From a virus, in IMG/VR virus record IMGVR_UViG_3300046777_002115, positions 1-27,318 of that record: a stretch of 27,318 bases of DNA. One strand, given 5' to 3'. The notes beneath the pieces are model-generated. The model did not search any database. It saw nothing but the letters and a program-made list of their open reading frames with translations, and was not told where the DNA came from. This document shows, in pieces, positions 3,048 to 21,888 of the stretch. Numbering within the stretch: position 1 is the stretch's first letter; every line of letters starts with the position of its first letter. The position numbers and the translations under genes were made by a program.

Positions 3048-5026
3048 CTTTGTCTTATTACTAATTGTTGCACCCACTCATGACGACACCAAGGTGTATT
3101 GGCTCCAGTATCTGGATTGTGATACCATCCTCCTCTGTATCTCCAGACATCTCTGTCCACTCTCATTGAGATGGTGTTGATTTCCTCTCTTGTGTACTTT
3201 CTATTCAAGCCAATCAAGCGTTGACAGAAAGCTCTTGATTGAGTCATCACTGGAGGAATGCCAGGGATCTCTCTGTATGTGTACACAACCTCGAATCTTT
3301 CAGCTGGTACCTCAACCTCCTCAATCAATGTTGATCCTGTCTCAGTTATTTCCATCTTGCTCACAAGTTCCCAGTCAGTGAGCCTCTTGAGACTCTTGGC
3401 AACCTCCTCAACAGTTGTATTCAATGCCTGTGATATTGCAACTCCATCCTCACCTTTCTGAATCAAGGAAAGAACATTCTTGTCAATATCTTTGAGGCCA
3501 ACTTTTATCTCTCCAATGGTTGCAAAAATCTGCTCTTGCTTGCTGAACACTTCCTCTGATGGTGTATTCCACACAATAGGATAGGATGCAAGCACTTTGA
3601 ACTCATGGGATGGTGTACCATATTGAGCAAAGTATCCAATCTCATCATCTGAGAATGACTCCTGATGCTTGCATGATGACATCTGTTGAGCTCCTGATGG
3701 TTGCAATCCCACAATTCTCCTGGCTTGTGCCTCATCAATTGTTGGGAATGATGCAAGCACAATGCTCAATGCACTCTCTGATGTTAACAATCCTTCTTTT
3801 ATCTTGGCAACTACATCAATCAATGATGCAATCTGTGCTCCATTTAGAGCTGACTTGGCAACATCCACTTGTGTCTCATTTGATGGTATATCTCCAGCTG
3901 TTGATGGTGCCTCAACAACAGGTTGCTCTGCTCCAATTGGAGACACATCCTTGAGCTTGACCTTACCAACAAAGCCAGAAAGCTCTGCCATGTAGTTGAT
4001 CATCCACTCAAGTCTCTTTTGCCTTGACTCAACATAAGTCTTTTTAAATATCTCATAAAGATCTCCAGTCTCAGCTGCATTGAATGAGCCATCTGGAGCA
4101 ACTCCAAACAATGATGGAGCAACAACTGAATGAGCAACCAAGATATTCTGTTGCACACTGTTCTCAGTTGTCTCATATCTCTTGTCAAGATCATTGCCAT
4201 TCAAGCTCTGTACAATGGGAGCCTTGTCCTTTGTATCACTGAATGTGATGACAATCTCTCCAGCATCCTCAACAGATTGACTTCGGCCTTTCACTTGTGC
4301 CTTTATATTCTCTGCCTCCTCCTGTGTCTCTGGATAGCCATCAGTGAATGAGATCATTGTACCTCCTTTGAATGAGTTTGCAATCTCATGCATGTGGAAT
4401 CTTGAGATATCAACATCAGTTTGTATGGCTGTGATCCCACCATAATATGGAGGCTTTGGATAAATTCCTTTTTCTTTCTTTGTTTTCTTGACAGGATCTT
4501 TGTAGTATATTATGAACTTGCCTGTCTTATTGGTCATATCAAGGGCTGGAATGGATCTCAGATTCGTTTTCTCAGCACTTTGTTGCATTGCTGTCCAATC
4601 ATCACTGATATAGTACATTCTCTCACTCTCATCAACTCTGATTGAGTCAAGGTCCACATGTTCCCATACGGCCACTCTTGATCCATCTCTATTCCATGTA
4701 CCTATTGCACAGAATCCTCCAAACATTTCATAATCATGAGCCAGCATCTCTGCAATCTCATTCATATCAAACTCTGCATATTTATTCTCAATGAATGGTT
4801 GCATATTACCAGAGACAACCTCAAGGCCTCCTCCAGCAATATAGTATGTTTTGTTCTTGATAATACCTTGATGCCATGCAGATCCATTGTATAGATCAAT
4901 CAAAAAATAAGGATAGTCATTCTTTTTACCCCATTTAATGAATCCAAGCATCCTATCTTTCTCCTCATCAGGCTTGATATAGTCCTTTTTAAATGTGAGG
5001 CTTGTCATTTTTACTGAATCACTCAT
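3044..5026 (-). CDS. Portal protein with C-terminal winged-helix-like and Cys/His domains
   Basis: At 660 aa this is longer than a typical 400-500 aa portal. Residues 1 to about 360 look like a portal core: the early KKNDYPYFLIDLYNGSAWH stretch, then YIAGGG, NGNDLDKRYETTE, and SVVAPSLFGVAPDG (about 305-318), which is conserved in Bacteroidetes phage portals. After a variable linker, a segment with GVAISQALNTTVEEVAKSLKRL (about 540-562) looks like a winged helix-turn-helix. The last 75 residues carry SRAFCQRL, YTREEINTIS, YRGGWYHNPDTG and TPWCRHEW, a Cys/His/Trp-rich module resembling C-termini of head-morphogenesis proteins. It overlaps the upstream gene by 8 nt. Portal assignment is firm; roles of the added domains are unknown. 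Confidence 0.85.
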   Translation of the reverse strand: MSDSVKMTSLTFKKDYIKPDEEKDRMLGFIKWGKKNDYPYFLIDLYNGSAWHQGIIKNKTYYIAGGGLEVVSGNMQPFIENKYAEFDMNEIAEMLAHDYEMFGGFCAIGTWNRDGSRVAVWEHVDLDSIRVDESERMYYISDDWTAMQQSAEKTNLRSIPALDMTNKTGKFIIYYKDPVKKTKKEKGIYPKPPYYGGITAIQTDVDISRFHMHEIANSFKGGTMISFTDGYPETQEEAENIKAQVKGRSQSVEDAGEIVITFSDTKDKAPIVQSLNGNDLDKRYETTENSVQQNILVAHSVVAPSLFGVAPDGSFNAAETGDLYEIFKKTYVESRQKRLEWMINYMAELSGFVGKVKLKDVSPIGAEQPVVEAPSTAGDIPSNETQVDVAKSALNGAQIASLIDVVAKIKEGLLTSESALSIVLASFPTIDEAQARRIVGLQPSGAQQMSSCKHQESFSDDEIGYFAQYGTPSHEFKVLASYPIVWNTPSEEVFSKQEQIFATIGEIKVGLKDIDKNVLSLIQKGEDGVAISQALNTTVEEVAKSLKRLTDWELVSKMEITETGSTLIEEVEVPAERFEVVYTYREIPGIPPVMTQSRAFCQRLIGLNRKYTREEINTISMRVDRDVWRYRGGWYHNPDTGANTPWCRHEWVQQLVIRQR

Positions 5027-18349: not shown

Positions 18350-19059
18350 ATATGGCTGTTTTGTAATTCCTTCCACACTGCATCCCATCTCTCTTGATAA
18401 TCTATGGATGATTCCTGTCCAGAGATACCATTCTGAATCCTGTACTCTTGCTCCAGAATCATCCTCTCCATCATCATCCTCGCTGTCTGTATTCCCAAAA
18501 TAGCGAGCCTCCGCTTGTCTAAGCTGTCCAAAAAAAAAGCGTAGAAATTCAAGAACTCATCACCAGGGAAATGCTCTCTGAATATCAGATACCTCTTTTC
18601 ATTAGGATTGAGCACTCTGCCTCTCTCATCCTCCTGGCAATACTCCATGCCATCCTCAACATACATGATTGACAATGGAGCCCATGGATCAGCACTGATA
18701 TCCTCAATCAGTTTCAAGTCAATGATCTGACCTGTTGTGACATGGGCAAAGTTTTTCTCAAGCCTGTACTTTTGGCCCTGGATCTCAATGACCTCCTCTG
18801 GCTCTTTCTGTTGGTATTGGCTGATGATTGTGAATATATGCTTGCTGGCCTCCATGATTGAATCAGGAACAGCCTTCTTGACTTTGTTCACTGGCAACCT
18901 TGAGAATATGCTCACAACTTGACAATGGAATTCAAGTATCTCTGTAAGTGACCTCTCGTTAATGGTTGATAGTGTGTCACTTACCATGAGCCACTTGTAC
19001 ATCATATCAGCCCCACATTCCTTGATGCTTGCTGGTAGTTTTATGTTGAAATCTTTCAT
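18346..19059 (-). CDS. Conserved-looking phage protein of unknown function between TerL and tail genes
   Basis: A 237-aa mostly helical protein. The start at 19059 is chosen because its ATG overlaps the TerL stop as ATGA; an in-frame ATG at 19113 would overlap TerL by 58 nt. Features include KLPASIKECGADMMYKWL at the N-terminus, EEVIEIQGQKYRLEKNF in the middle, and the block DPWAPLSIMYVEDGMEYCQ followed by REHFPGDEFLNFYAFFLDSL (about 145-200). This block is similar to small proteins found in tail modules of Bacteroidetes phages, for which I do not know a demonstrated function. A tail assembly chaperone is possible, since none is obvious beside the tape measure. Confidence 0.72.
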   Translation of the reverse strand: MKDFNIKLPASIKECGADMMYKWLMVSDTLSTINERSLTEILEFHCQVVSIFSRLPVNKVKKAVPDSIMEASKHIFTIISQYQQKEPEEVIEIQGQKYRLEKNFAHVTTGQIIDLKLIEDISADPWAPLSIMYVEDGMEYCQEDERGRVLNPNEKRYLIFREHFPGDEFLNFYAFFLDSLDKRRLAILGIQTARMMMERMILEQEYRIQNGISGQESSIDYQERWDAVWKELQNSHM

Positions 19060-20258
19060 GCTCTGATCACTTGATATCTGCCTTTGTTTTGTTGTGTTTT
19101 GCGACAATGCCATGCAAGAGCCAAGCTCATTACACCATCATCATGCAATCCAATTGGAGCTGAGTATTGCACAGCCCTTGTATTCACGTTGTAAATATAG
19201 GTAAAATTCTCAAGCTCGTCAACCAACCAATCAACATCTTGCAATGAGATCTCTCTCTGCTCAAATGCCATGGCAAGATCCTCAATGATGATTGGCTTGC
19301 TCTTGGATGTTGTTGTGAATGGCACAATCAGATTGCGACATTTGTCTCTGAGCATCTCATGGAATACATCTCCTTGGTTGTTGATCTCAATCAGTGTTGT
19401 TGCTCTGTGCCTATTGATGACATCAGCAACTGAGTCAATGATCTTGGTCCACTCCTGGTGCCTCCATCTGTTGACATAGACCTGTTGACCATCCTCATCC
19501 AATATATTGAGCACAGTGTAGTCATCAGCTCGGCCAATGTCCAAGCCAGCATATGCCTTGGCTCCTGGAGATATTGGCTTGATGCAATCTCTGATGTTCT
19601 TGAATAAACCAGAGCCATTGTCCAGGAACTCTGCCAGATACTCCTGTCTGAATATGTGATCAGGAAGGGATCTCTTTCTCTCATCCAATTCTCTTGGATC
19701 AATCATGGGATTGTCATATGAGGAGTAATGGAAATACGCATACCTCTCATCATAGTTGTGTTGCATGCAGATCCTGTGGAAATGATTCTTGCCCTTTGGT
19801 GTTGAGATGAATATTACCTTCTTGCCCTTGACCATAACTGTTGCACTGAGCACCTCATCCCACAGCTCTTGCCTGGTGAATGCCATCTCATCCACAACCA
19901 TGTAATCAAAGGTATTACCTCTGATGTTGTCTGGTCTCTCTCCAGAAAAGAACTCAATGGATGATCCAAAGCCTGTGACAATCAGATCAGACTTGTTGAA
20001 TGTGAACAGGCCACTCCTTGTGACTGCTCTCTCCAGCTCTGAGAATACTTTCTTGCCTTGCTTGTAAACTGGTGTGATCCAGGCAATCTTGCATCCTTTG
20101 TCATTTATGGCCCAGTACAAAAGCTGGTTGATTCCAAGCAAGGTCTTGCCGAACTGCCTGCCAATGTTCAGAGCATAGTATTTCTCATGCCCATGGTTGA
20201 TGGCATCATGGATCTCTCTCTGTGTTTTGTGAGGCTTGTACCCTTTGACTGTTGTCAT
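19056..20258 (-). CDS. terL: Terminase large subunit
   Basis: A 400-aa protein with both expected parts. ATPase: Walker A-like GRQFGKT (33-39), a TP-containing motif in KIAWITPVYKQGKK (about 57-70), Walker B VVDE (121-124) and coupling motif FISTPKGKNHF (150-160). Nuclease, RNase H-like: LDIGRADD with Asp240, LIEINNQGD with Glu291 region, and LHDDGVMSLALA with Asp373/374. It packages DNA into the prohead through the portal. It follows a structured leader at 20259-20391 and is the first gene of the late operon; a TAACTTTG box lies only 4 nt before its ATG. Length is slightly short but all motifs are present. Confidence 0.95.
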   Translation of the reverse strand: MTTVKGYKPHKTQREIHDAINHGHEKYYALNIGRQFGKTLLGINQLLYWAINDKGCKIAWITPVYKQGKKVFSELERAVTRSGLFTFNKSDLIVTGFGSSIEFFSGERPDNIRGNTFDYMVVDEMAFTRQELWDEVLSATVMVKGKKVIFISTPKGKNHFHRICMQHNYDERYAYFHYSSYDNPMIDPRELDERKRSLPDHIFRQEYLAEFLDNGSGLFKNIRDCIKPISPGAKAYAGLDIGRADDYTVLNILDEDGQQVYVNRWRHQEWTKIIDSVADVINRHRATTLIEINNQGDVFHEMLRDKCRNLIVPFTTTSKSKPIIIEDLAMAFEQREISLQDVDWLVDELENFTYIYNVNTRAVQYSAPIGLHDDGVMSLALAWHCRKTQQNKGRYQVIRA

Positions 20259-20262
20259 TAAA

Positions 20263-20270
20263 CAAAGTTA
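20263..20270 (-). promoter_or_regulatory. Candidate -7 box immediately before terL
   Basis: Minus-strand TAACTTTG matches TAnnTTTG and ends four bases before the terL ATG. No -33 TTTG is found at the proper distance. If functional the terL transcript would be leaderless. The same box-to-ATG spacing (four bases) is seen before the second ATG of the plus-strand gene. Confidence 0.33.
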
Positions 20271-20324
20271 AGAAAAAAACCCGCTAAGTGTGGGCGACCA
20301 GGGATTCCCTAATCCATTAACCAT
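20268..20324 (-). CDS. Possible 18-codon leader peptide ORF
   Basis: An ORF from ATG at 20324 (inside the hairpin base) to TAA at 20270-20268 encodes MVNGLGNPWSPTLSGFFS. It crosses the whole stem-loop and the T-tract, so a translating ribosome would prevent the hairpin from forming. It is short and may be fortuitous. No Shine-Dalgarno sequence is visible. Confidence 0.25.
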   Translation of the reverse strand: MVNGLGNPWSPTLSGFFS

Positions 20325-20331
20325 AGCGGGT
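20273..20331 (-). terminator. Terminator-like hairpin before terL (possible attenuator)
   Basis: ACCCGCTA and TAGCGGGT (minus 20331-20324 and 20286-20279) form a perfect 8-bp stem followed by six more T. The 37-nt loop holds its own hairpin, GGATT-AGGG-AATCC (20315-20302). Because the apical part is long it is not a classical terminator. It lies between a predicted promoter and terL, where an attenuator would act. Confidence 0.5.
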
Positions 20332-20376
20332 GTATTAAATCGAATCACTCGATTCATTGAAAGTCGGATTTCAAAT
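20332..20376 (-). promoter_or_regulatory. Two stem-loops in the terL leader
   Basis: Between the predicted transcription start and the terminator-like hairpin are TTGAAA-TCCGAC-TTTCAA (minus 20374-20357) and AATCGA-GTGAT-TCGATT (minus 20354-20338), each with a perfect 6-bp stem. Together with the hairpin at 20273-20331 they make three tandem structures in about 100 nt. This stretch also has several CpG in a genome that almost lacks them. Function inferred as a regulatory leader or packaging site. Confidence 0.45.
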
Positions 20377-20406
20377 CAAAGATAAGTAATTTTATTCAAA
20401 ATCAAA
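20377..20406 (-). promoter_or_regulatory. Predicted Bacteroidetes-type promoter for the late operon
   Basis: On the minus strand TTTG (20406-20403) is followed after 18 bp by TATCTTTG (20384-20377). The spacing is slightly shorter than the preferred 19-21 but within the reported range for Flavobacteriia. The upstream part overlaps the end of the small terminase gene. The start of transcription would be near 20370, giving a leader of about 110 nt before terL. Confidence 0.55.
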
Positions 20407-20790
20407 CTTCTCAACATTCCTGGTCTCAACTTGTTGCCTGTCATGCATACCAAGAGCATTCTTTGCGTAGAAAATTCCCTTGCCCTCATTGGCAACAATG
20501 TCCTTTGCTAATCCTTTAAAGAGCTCATCAATTGTTTTTATAGTGTTCGATAATGGATGACTTTCATCATTCATTGCATCATACCAGTTTGTTCTTTTGT
20601 AAAAATCAAAATGTTCTCTTCTCAGGTAGTGATTCAAAAAGTATGATATTGTTGGGATATGTCTCTCAGCAACTTTTTTCACTCCAGAATTTGTTGCAAC
20701 TTCTTTTGTTGATGCAATACAAAAATCACAATAGCCAAAAGCCTTGGATAATAGATCATCCTTATCAATATTTCTATATTGATTAGACAT
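20392..20790 (-). CDS. terS: Probable terminase small subunit
   Basis: A 132-aa helical protein directly before terL. NSGVKKVAERHIPTISYFLN, then NHYLRREHFDFYKRTNWYDAM, the block SNTIKTIDELFKGLAKDIVA and finally GKGIFYAKNALGMHDRQQVE match the small DNA-packaging proteins encoded upstream of terL in Bacteroidetes phages. The last block, with YAKNALGM-D, is the most characteristic. It would recognise the packaging site, possibly in the adjacent structured non-coding region, and load TerL. It lacks an obvious N-terminal HTH, so assignment leans on context and the C-terminal signature. Confidence 0.68.
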   Translation of the reverse strand: MSNQYRNIDKDDLLSKAFGYCDFCIASTKEVATNSGVKKVAERHIPTISYFLNHYLRREHFDFYKRTNWYDAMNDESHPLSNTIKTIDELFKGLAKDIVANEGKGIFYAKNALGMHDRQQVETRNVEKFDFE

Positions 20791-20817: not shown

Positions 20818-21888
20818 CTATTTGCAATATTTAATGTAAAACGTATATGGCACAACTTTGAGCTTTGCAAGTATCCAGATCAATGCTCTGTATTTCTTGA
20901 AATCGTATTTATCAAAGTTCTTTCTGTCCAGCTTTCTGATGGAGATCAGTTTCATGACTCTCTGCTCAATGGCTCCGAGTTTGGTTGTGTCGAATGTTGA
21001 TGGCTGATTGAATATGGCAAGAGCCTCCTCTTTCTTGAGTTTGCCACTTCTCACCTGTGCTGAGAGATACACAATTCTTTTATCAATTCCGAACTTTACA
21101 GGCAATAGATATGATCCAACAAACTCAGTGTAAACATTCTCACAATGCTTGCCTCCATAATCTTGCCAGTTGATGAATCTTTTCATCTCCTCCTCCATTG
21201 ACTCACGATCCCACTTGTAATGGAATGGCCTCACATTTTTGATGCCCATCAGAGCATAGAACAATTGGTCCTTGAATGTGAATAATGGATAGTTATGAAG
21301 CTCAAGGCCACTGTACTTGTTGTAAACTGATCGGATGTATTTTGCATCCATGTATGTCCATCCCTTTGGAGTTGATCCCTCTGTTCTGAAATCATGGCCA
21401 TTGAGAATGTACTTGATGCCATATTTGTGAGCTGTGTCATACATCAGCTTAGTCATGGCAATGTCATTTGGTATATCTGCATCAGGAAGGCCAGCCCACA
21501 GGAATGCATCATTGAGTCGGTCATATTCACTCTTGTTGACTTGGTATGTGATGCAATCAACTCCGAGCTTTTGGACCAGCTGTGTCATATTGTGGACAGC
21601 CTCTGGAGCATTCCAGTTGTTGTCAAAGTGAATGACTAAGGGCTTTAGATTCCAATATCTCACCGCTGCATATAGCAAGGTTGATGAGTCCACTCCTCCA
21701 GAGATCCCCATGATACAGTTGTACTTGTTCTTTCTGCCTGTCCATCTGATGGATTCCAGGAGATTATCAAGGGCACCAGGTCCTGATGCTTGTCTCTCCA
21801 GCTCGTCATGGAGATCACAGTATTCACATTGATGCTCTCCTATCTCTGCAAAAGAGTCATTAAATAAACAGCGTTGACATTCTTTCAT
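20818..21888 (-). CDS. N-acetyl sugar amidotransferase, WbpG/PseA-like
   Basis: A 356-aa protein. Cys4, Cys7, Cys21 and Cys24 form a zinc-ribbon-like pair (ECQRC and CEYC). The ATP-pyrophosphatase PP-loop is NCIMGISGGVDSS (57-69), followed by LVIHFDNNWNAPEAV and KLGVDCITYQVN. This is the signature of the sugar amidotransferase family (WbpG, PseA) that converts an acetamido group on a sugar to an acetamidino group in LPS O-antigen or glycan synthesis. No glutaminase (HisH-like) subunit is in the window, so ammonia would come from a host partner. It overlaps the upstream glycosyltransferase gene by 29 nt. A phage location is unusual. Confidence 0.85.
   Translation of the reverse strand: MKECQRCLFNDSFAEIGEHQCEYCDLHDELERQASGPGALDNLLESIRWTGRKNKYNCIMGISGGVDSSTLLYAAVRYWNLKPLVIHFDNNWNAPEAVHNMTQLVQKLGVDCITYQVNKSEYDRLNDAFLWAGLPDADIPNDIAMTKLMYDTAHKYGIKYILNGHDFRTEGSTPKGWTYMDAKYIRSVYNKYSGLELHNYPLFTFKDQLFYALMGIKNVRPFHYKWDRESMEEEMKRFINWQDYGGKHCENVYTEFVGSYLLPVKFGIDKRIVYLSAQVRSGKLKKEEALAIFNQPSTFDTTKLGAIEQRVMKLISIRKLDRKNFDKYDFKKYRALIWILAKLKVVPYTFYIKYCK

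Follow-up and report, generated by a model that had tools for sequence, protein, structure and literature searches.

The segment at positions 20259-20391 of the window (the whole 27,318-nt stretch of viral DNA analysed) is an inserted cassette, absent from most close relatives of the phage and therefore no standard leader. Its terminal stem-loop, here called motif A, is well supported by sequence comparison as a divergent relative of abiF RNA. The RNA of this terminator-promoter cassette is probably an orphan antitoxin decoy directed against host Abi_2 toxins (estimated probability about 0.6).

Anatomy of the cassette and its insertion upstream of terL

The segment forms a 133-nt gap between two packaging genes. 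All elements lie on the minus strand, as do the genes:

19056..20258, minus strand: terL, large terminase subunit, 400 aa (phrog_2, E = 1e-44; PF03237, E = 2e-16)
20263..20270, minus strand: -7-like box TAACTTTG between T-run and terL, 4 nt from the start codon; candidate new terL promoter (TAnnTTTG pattern of the inserts)
20272..20278, minus strand: U-tract (T7) of the intrinsic terminator (sequence, fold)
20274..20336, minus strand: motif A, abiF-like RNA with an intrinsic-terminator end (covariance models and covariation)
20279..20286, minus strand: 3' arm of motif A stem P1, TAGCGGGT (fold, covariation)
20287..20299, minus strand: 3' box of motif A, GGTCGCCCACACT, with the end of P2, upper stem CCA and bulge CACU; invariant in 20 distinct copies
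20300..20310, minus strand: variable part of motif A hairpin P2 (AGGGAATCCCT); three pairs with compensatory changes
20311..20323, minus strand: 5' box of motif A, TGGTTAATGGATT, with upper stem UGG, internal loop and the start of P2; near-invariant in 20 distinct copies
20324..20331, minus strand: 5' arm of motif A stem P1, ACCCGCTA, pairing with 20279-20286 (fold, covariation)
20336..20356, minus strand: 5' stem-loop 2, 8 bp, ATCGAGTGATTCGAT (fold)
20357..20374, minus strand: 5' stem-loop 1, 6 bp (fold); among terL relatives only in the closest ones
20377..20406, minus strand: Bacteroidota-type promoter, TTTG-N18-TATCTTTG (sequence pattern); shares positions with the last part of the upstream ORF
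20392..20790, minus strand: upstream ORF, 132 aa, in the small terminase subunit slot directly upstream of terL; named terS by position only

The upstream ORF had no family match in PHROGs or Pfam. A further ORF near the terminase genes (20818-21888, minus strand, 356 aa) showed weak PP-loop/QueC-like similarity (phrog_1550, E = 9e-4) and a PAPS_reduct match just under the cut-off.

The promoter, the three stem-loops and the T-run before terL, all described in an earlier sequence-only reading, were confirmed. The gap folds at -34 kcal/mol (z = -2.97), and 2 of 200 shuffles folded as well. Its plus strand also folds (z = -2.38), because inverted repeats must fold on either strand. The promoter fits the Bacteroidota -33/-7 type, not sigma-70; two sites of this pattern were found on the minus strand of the window, where 0.44 were expected, the second (TTTG-N-TAnnTTTG type) lying at positions 3-35, at the window edge. 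The pattern of 5' stem-loop 2 was limited to 4 viral contigs, of which 3 are near-identical relatives. The third stem-loop (20331-20279) consists of an 8-bp base and an inner 8-bp hairpin and is followed by T7, which ends 13 nt ahead of terL; a standard terminator scan misses this terminator because its loop is too long.

A TAnnTTTG box was present 4-6 nt before terL in 19 of 19 A- or B-type inserts counted. In the window no -33 element was found for the corresponding -7-like box, so that its role as a terL promoter is a suggestion. A terminator before terL would be a cost to the phage, and such a box would restore terL transcription.

The CpG enrichment of the gap reported earlier held up as well: the 133 nt contain 6 CpG (observed/expected 1.33 versus 0.14 for the whole window), and no 90-nt stretch of the window exceeds 6, which makes the gap its CpG-densest stretch. 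The window (1-27318) is strongly CpG-poor throughout, with values of 0.08-0.26 for terL, terS and other genes. The contrast is attributed to the foreign origin and high stem content of the insert, set in a genome poor in CpG.

Relatives were collected by a terL protein search in IMG/VR (243 found, best 80 kept), and the terS-terL gap was scored in 77 entries (76 relatives and the window). In 41 of these 77, drawn from the best 80 of 243, terS and terL share an ATGA overlap and leave no gap. Motif A was found in 15 entries including the window, module B (see below) without A in 4, another stem-loop type (F) in 15, and other inserts in 2; occupied entries are partly near-identical contigs, so that these counts are records and not insertion events. 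L005 provides a clean empty site, with 95.8% (terL) and 96% (terS end) nucleotide identity to the window and no insert. Promoter/stem-loop (PeSL) cassettes of T4-type phages are mobile intergenic cassettes and resemble the window cassette in this respect; they are not known to have a conserved antitoxin-like RNA core.

Several other structures were observed upstream of terL. F-type inserts (L027, L029, L035, L044 and others) lie just upstream of the gene, where other relatives carry motif A, and comprise a conserved TAGGTATCCGG and then a stem with loop CGCA, whose arms covary (GCGCAG/CTGCGC, CCACAG/CTGTGG, GCAGAG/CTCTGC). In L204 and L166, GGATTGTGATGTTCACGGTCG resembles a lone motif A P2 hairpin without lower stem, a decayed or rearranged copy. 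L175 carries a different terminal stem-loop, CCGTTAAGTCCCTGAGCAATTAAACTTAACGGGTTTTTT, after module B, possibly another antitoxin-type module.

Motif A and its kinship with abiF RNA

Motif A recurs at various loci of 53 viral contigs, and the loci compared include 25 distinct cores. The exact pattern of the motif occurred in 0 of 84,980 bacterial and archaeal GTDB genomes, and neither the locus nor motif A had a BLAST match among 50,697 cultured phages. Two 13-nt boxes flank a variable hairpin, and the whole is closed by a variable stem. Across 20 distinct copies only one box position varies (T or A, in the 5' box); the T-to-A variant was found through motif B. Relaxed motif A patterns gave only chance matches in viral contigs, with no closing stem.

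In an alignment of the 20 distinct sequences 99.2% of cells pair, and 7 of 18 pairs are changed on both sides (34 cells in all), a covariation score reached by 0 of 500 shuffles. The check for covariation among relatives proposed with the sequence-only reading thus bears out its view that the segment is constrained as RNA.

Motif A is co-directional with its upstream gene in nearly all loci. It often lies downstream of endolysin-like genes, in the kin of the window between terS and terL, and in L083, L122 and L124 between convergent genes. In L097 (approximately 3590-3700) it closely follows the apparent 3' end of a tRNA gene. In L087, L092 and L120 modules B and A are separated by a further conserved hairpin, AAGTCCCTTTACTCACAAGCTGAGTAGGTGGACT. 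Kissing of the B and A loops (CCAUUAG/UUAAUGG) was considered and dropped, because an AUGG-to-AAGG variant breaks the pairing.

Motif A was compared with abiF RNA (RF03085; PbAbiF ncRNA 8VZ6, C. difficile RCd22). Both have a P1 stem ending in a U-tract, a 3-bp upper stem, a 3'-side bulge (CACU in one abiF subclass), an upstream promoter and compact size; the apex differs. The lower stem of abiF RNAs is a covarying helix of 6-8 bp, and P1 of motif A has 8 pairs, of which 4 are changed on both sides, with 98.1% paired. Upper stem and bulge are UGG/CCA with CACU in the window and UGC/GCA with CACU in cellular RNAs, so that CCA-CACU corresponds to GCA-CACU. The frame of the cellular CACACTT abiF subclass is the same as that of the window RNA (GATACACCCGCTATG-loop-CACACTTTAGCGGGTTTTTT in cellular L249 versus TAATACACCCGCTATG-loop-CACACTTAGCGGGTTTTTTT in the window). 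The most conserved part of the abiF family, apical GCCUCUCAACGAUGC, is replaced in motif A: the apical consensus GCCUMUCAAYGAUGC is absent from the window, which has GGUUAAUGGAUU-P2-GGUCGCC instead, an apical loop of the form UUAAUG-P2-GC with a variable hairpin. In abiF loci an Abi_2 (PF07751) gene follows, whereas terL follows motif A in the window. The Rfam abiF model (gathering threshold 37 bits) gave no match in the window, and no meaningful Rfam family was found there at E up to 10.

Covariance models were trained in both directions. Model R1, trained on phage motif A only, scored the window copy at 79 bits; its best matches other than motif A in 450 kb were cellular abiF RNAs (L249, L227 and L265, E 0.002-0.005). 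Model R2, trained on eight cellular abiF RNAs only, gave 26.6 bits for window motif A (E = 1.5e-6 within the window). Many phage copies of A reached E 2e-5 to 1e-3 in 410 kb, and all other places had E >= 0.065. Much of the R2 score is attributed to lower stem and U-tract, because the opposite strand, which offers the stem alone, still scored 15.7 bits; copies with other lower stems (L090, L094, L097, L099, L113, L121) were missed by R2.

Several lines agree on the family link, and the strongest is a shared slot and frame. Sister phages have a compact abiF form in place of motif A, in the slot that follows module B and has the same flanks (TAATACACC...CACACTTAG..GGTTTTT). Copies in two sister phages (L162, L191) contain the abiF apical consensus. 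The compact phage copy is identical to cellular abiF RNA L323 at 43 of 47 nt and scored 32.3 bits with the Rfam abiF model, below gathering. Its cellular relatives by pattern number at least 119 stretches, mostly in Bacteroidota, some of them chance matches in genes. ORFs downstream of cellular abiF RNAs were Abi_2 in 10 of 10 cases tested (E 1e-27 to 1e-60), and the one tested further, that of L323, matched the solved AbiF structure 8VZ6 (E = 3.9e-46).

Module B and the search for a toxin gene

Module B was found in 71 viral contigs and is absent from the window. Near terL it stands before motif A in most of the other carriers, and it does so in many lysis regions as well. Its stem covaries at 6 of 9 pairs, and in most phages it has no U-tract, yet loop and compensated stem are kept. 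The same motif is an RNA directly upstream of many Bacteroidota Abi_2 genes; 16 of the loci examined show module B. These class-B RNAs (cellular L346, L345, L343, L334 and others) form a stem-loop with loop CCCRTNNGAAC, typically 100-200 nt upstream of Abi_2 on the same strand. The L083 copy is identical to cellular L346 at 44 of 49 nt. Model R3, built from cellular B copies, detected L083 at 3e-16 and L187 at 2e-8, and the commonest phage form weakly (E 5e-4 to 0.4). Class-B RNA was present in 47 of 395 sampled Bacteroidota genomes versus 21 of 29 of those in which Abi_2 was found. The Rfam abiF model gave at best 25.7 bits on class-B sequence, below threshold, and class-B RNA upstream of Abi_2 is a candidate new RNA family. 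Abi_2-associated RNAs of two or more classes are therefore present in phages.

No Abi_2 gene was found in 30 phage records or in the window (31 in all, several records being fragments). The window RNA is phage-borne, related to a host antitoxin RNA and unaccompanied by a toxin gene, as expected of a decoy, with the caveat of the motif A apex. Searches of 84,980 genomes (exact pattern) and of Bacteroidota samples (R1) revealed no cellular Abi_2 gene associated with an A-type apex. R1 searches of two overlapping samples of 395 Bacteroidota genomes each gave two weak matches, both rejected as chance: L330 lies inside a coding frame, and L329 is an intergenic hairpin between convergent genes with no Abi_2 nearby. 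In the class of Oligella, A-type RNA was found in 0 of 369 genomes, a result of little weight because the strict filters also missed a known weak match. No abiF RNA was found in lactococcal phage sk1, from which, by the title of the respective paper, a DNA region that protects phage 712 against AbiF derives.

Proposed role and alternatives

We infer transcription of the RNA, its binding to a toxin, the kind of toxin targeted and the anti-defence effect. The cassette would encode a small RNA of about 95-105 nt, starting at the Bacteroidota-type promoter and ending at the intrinsic terminator, and terL would probably be transcribed from the new promoter box just before its start codon. During infection the 3' half of the RNA (motif A) may bind an Abi_2-family toxin of the host and keep it inactive. 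With an antidote and no toxin gene in view, the phage would use the RNA as a decoy antitoxin, and abortive infection would fail. Such silencing is proposed by analogy with a phage mimic of the ToxIN type and with AbiF RNA acting in trans. AbiF, a HEPN RNase that its own RNA keeps inactive, is related to the origin of Cas13 (PMC12737573). The RNA of C. difficile AbiF (RCd22) acts in cis via termination and in trans on the protein, neutralising the toxin in trans (PMC12373285).

An RNA mimic of the ToxI antitoxin in phage PhiTE suppresses abortive infection (PMC3475682). Like motif A, this pseudo-ToxI (a type III TA mimic) is a phage-borne antitoxin-like RNA without toxin gene; unlike it, pseudo-ToxI has ToxI pseudoknot repeats for ToxN and no AbiF stem-loop, and its function was shown, whereas that of the window RNA is proposed. 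RNA anti-CRISPRs (Racrs) are likewise solitary phage-encoded mimics of a host defence RNA, but mimic CRISPR repeats and not an antitoxin (PMC10651486). Besides phage-borne antitoxin mimics, an abiF RNA in a phage is already known: one was predicted in the lytic cyanophage S-CREM1 (PMC9964418). That RNA differs in scoring 51.6 bits with the standard Rfam model and in host group, and the available part of that report proposes no decoy role. The literature searched contained no orphan AbiF-type RNA array whose apex is restricted to viruses.

The cassette could instead be a terminator-promoter unit without anti-defence role that separates terS and terL transcription, its abiF kinship reflecting origin only. 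The terminal U-tract of motif A, the box before terL in all 19 inserts, the unrelated terminator stem-loops (F type, L054 type) in the same place in other relatives and the position of A between convergent genes in three loci would all agree with this. A terminator does not need two near-invariant 13-nt boxes, however; module B keeps its loop and compensated stem mostly without a U-tract, and some copies of A (L090, L094, L099) are followed by a separate terminator, and we regard this explanation as unlikely. Lower still is the probability that the RNA is a cis-acting attenuator or riboswitch of terL, setting read-through from the upstream promoter into the late genes according to whether a protein or metabolite occupies the conserved boxes. 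The order promoter, RNA, terminator, gene is that of the cellular abiF locus, whose RNA acts in cis as an attenuator of the gene that follows (PMC12373285). The attenuator part of the leader interpretation in the sequence-only reading may stand. A standard leader it is not, as most relatives express terL without the RNA (the 41 of 77 overlaps, from the best 80 of 243), and at other loci no particular gene follows motif A, which can also lie between convergent ones.

That the RNA is a remnant of an AbiF toxin-antitoxin pair once present in the phage lineage appears very improbable. AbiF genes do occur in prophages, often beside lysis genes (PMC12373285), and endolysin-like genes directly precede many A/B arrays; against this, strong covariation and near-invariant boxes in unrelated positions indicate current selection, and the 31 records contained no Abi_2 match. 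The sequence-only reading had also offered a packaging (pac/cos) site or a put-like antitermination RNA, for which only the position next to terL speaks. These proposals are not supported and are regarded as extremely improbable: the segment is absent from most relatives, including L005 with about 96% identical terS and terL, and the motif occurs away from terminase genes in other phages, after endolysin-like or between convergent genes. Furthermore, a U-tract terminates motif A, and the RNAs most closely related to the motif are those associated with AbiF; neither finding favours a put-like element, whose RNA would let polymerase read through later terminators.

For the decoy reading, the rebuilt apex of motif A possibly reflects a different toxin subfamily and possibly a phage-adapted form. 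With a chance somewhat below even, uncultured Bacteroidota phages may carry swappable arrays of orphan RNA antitoxins (A, B, compact abiF) against several Abi_2/AbiF classes, the virus-only motif A being a phage-evolved form whose rebuilt apex (P2 and the two near-invariant boxes) gives broader toxin inhibition or resistance to cutting by the toxin. Class-B RNA, below the Rfam threshold, merits a family of its own. AbiF, from which Cas13 is proposed to descend, is a common toxin of phage defence that is restrained by an RNA. If the decoy reading is true, RNA-only counter-defence, so far known from single cases such as PhiTE and ToxIN, would be widespread, and the conservation of such short stem-loops and their exchange among phage loci would be explained. 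The RNAs would then be natural inhibitors for the study of how AbiF-type RNases are switched off, with sequences that can be tested at once.
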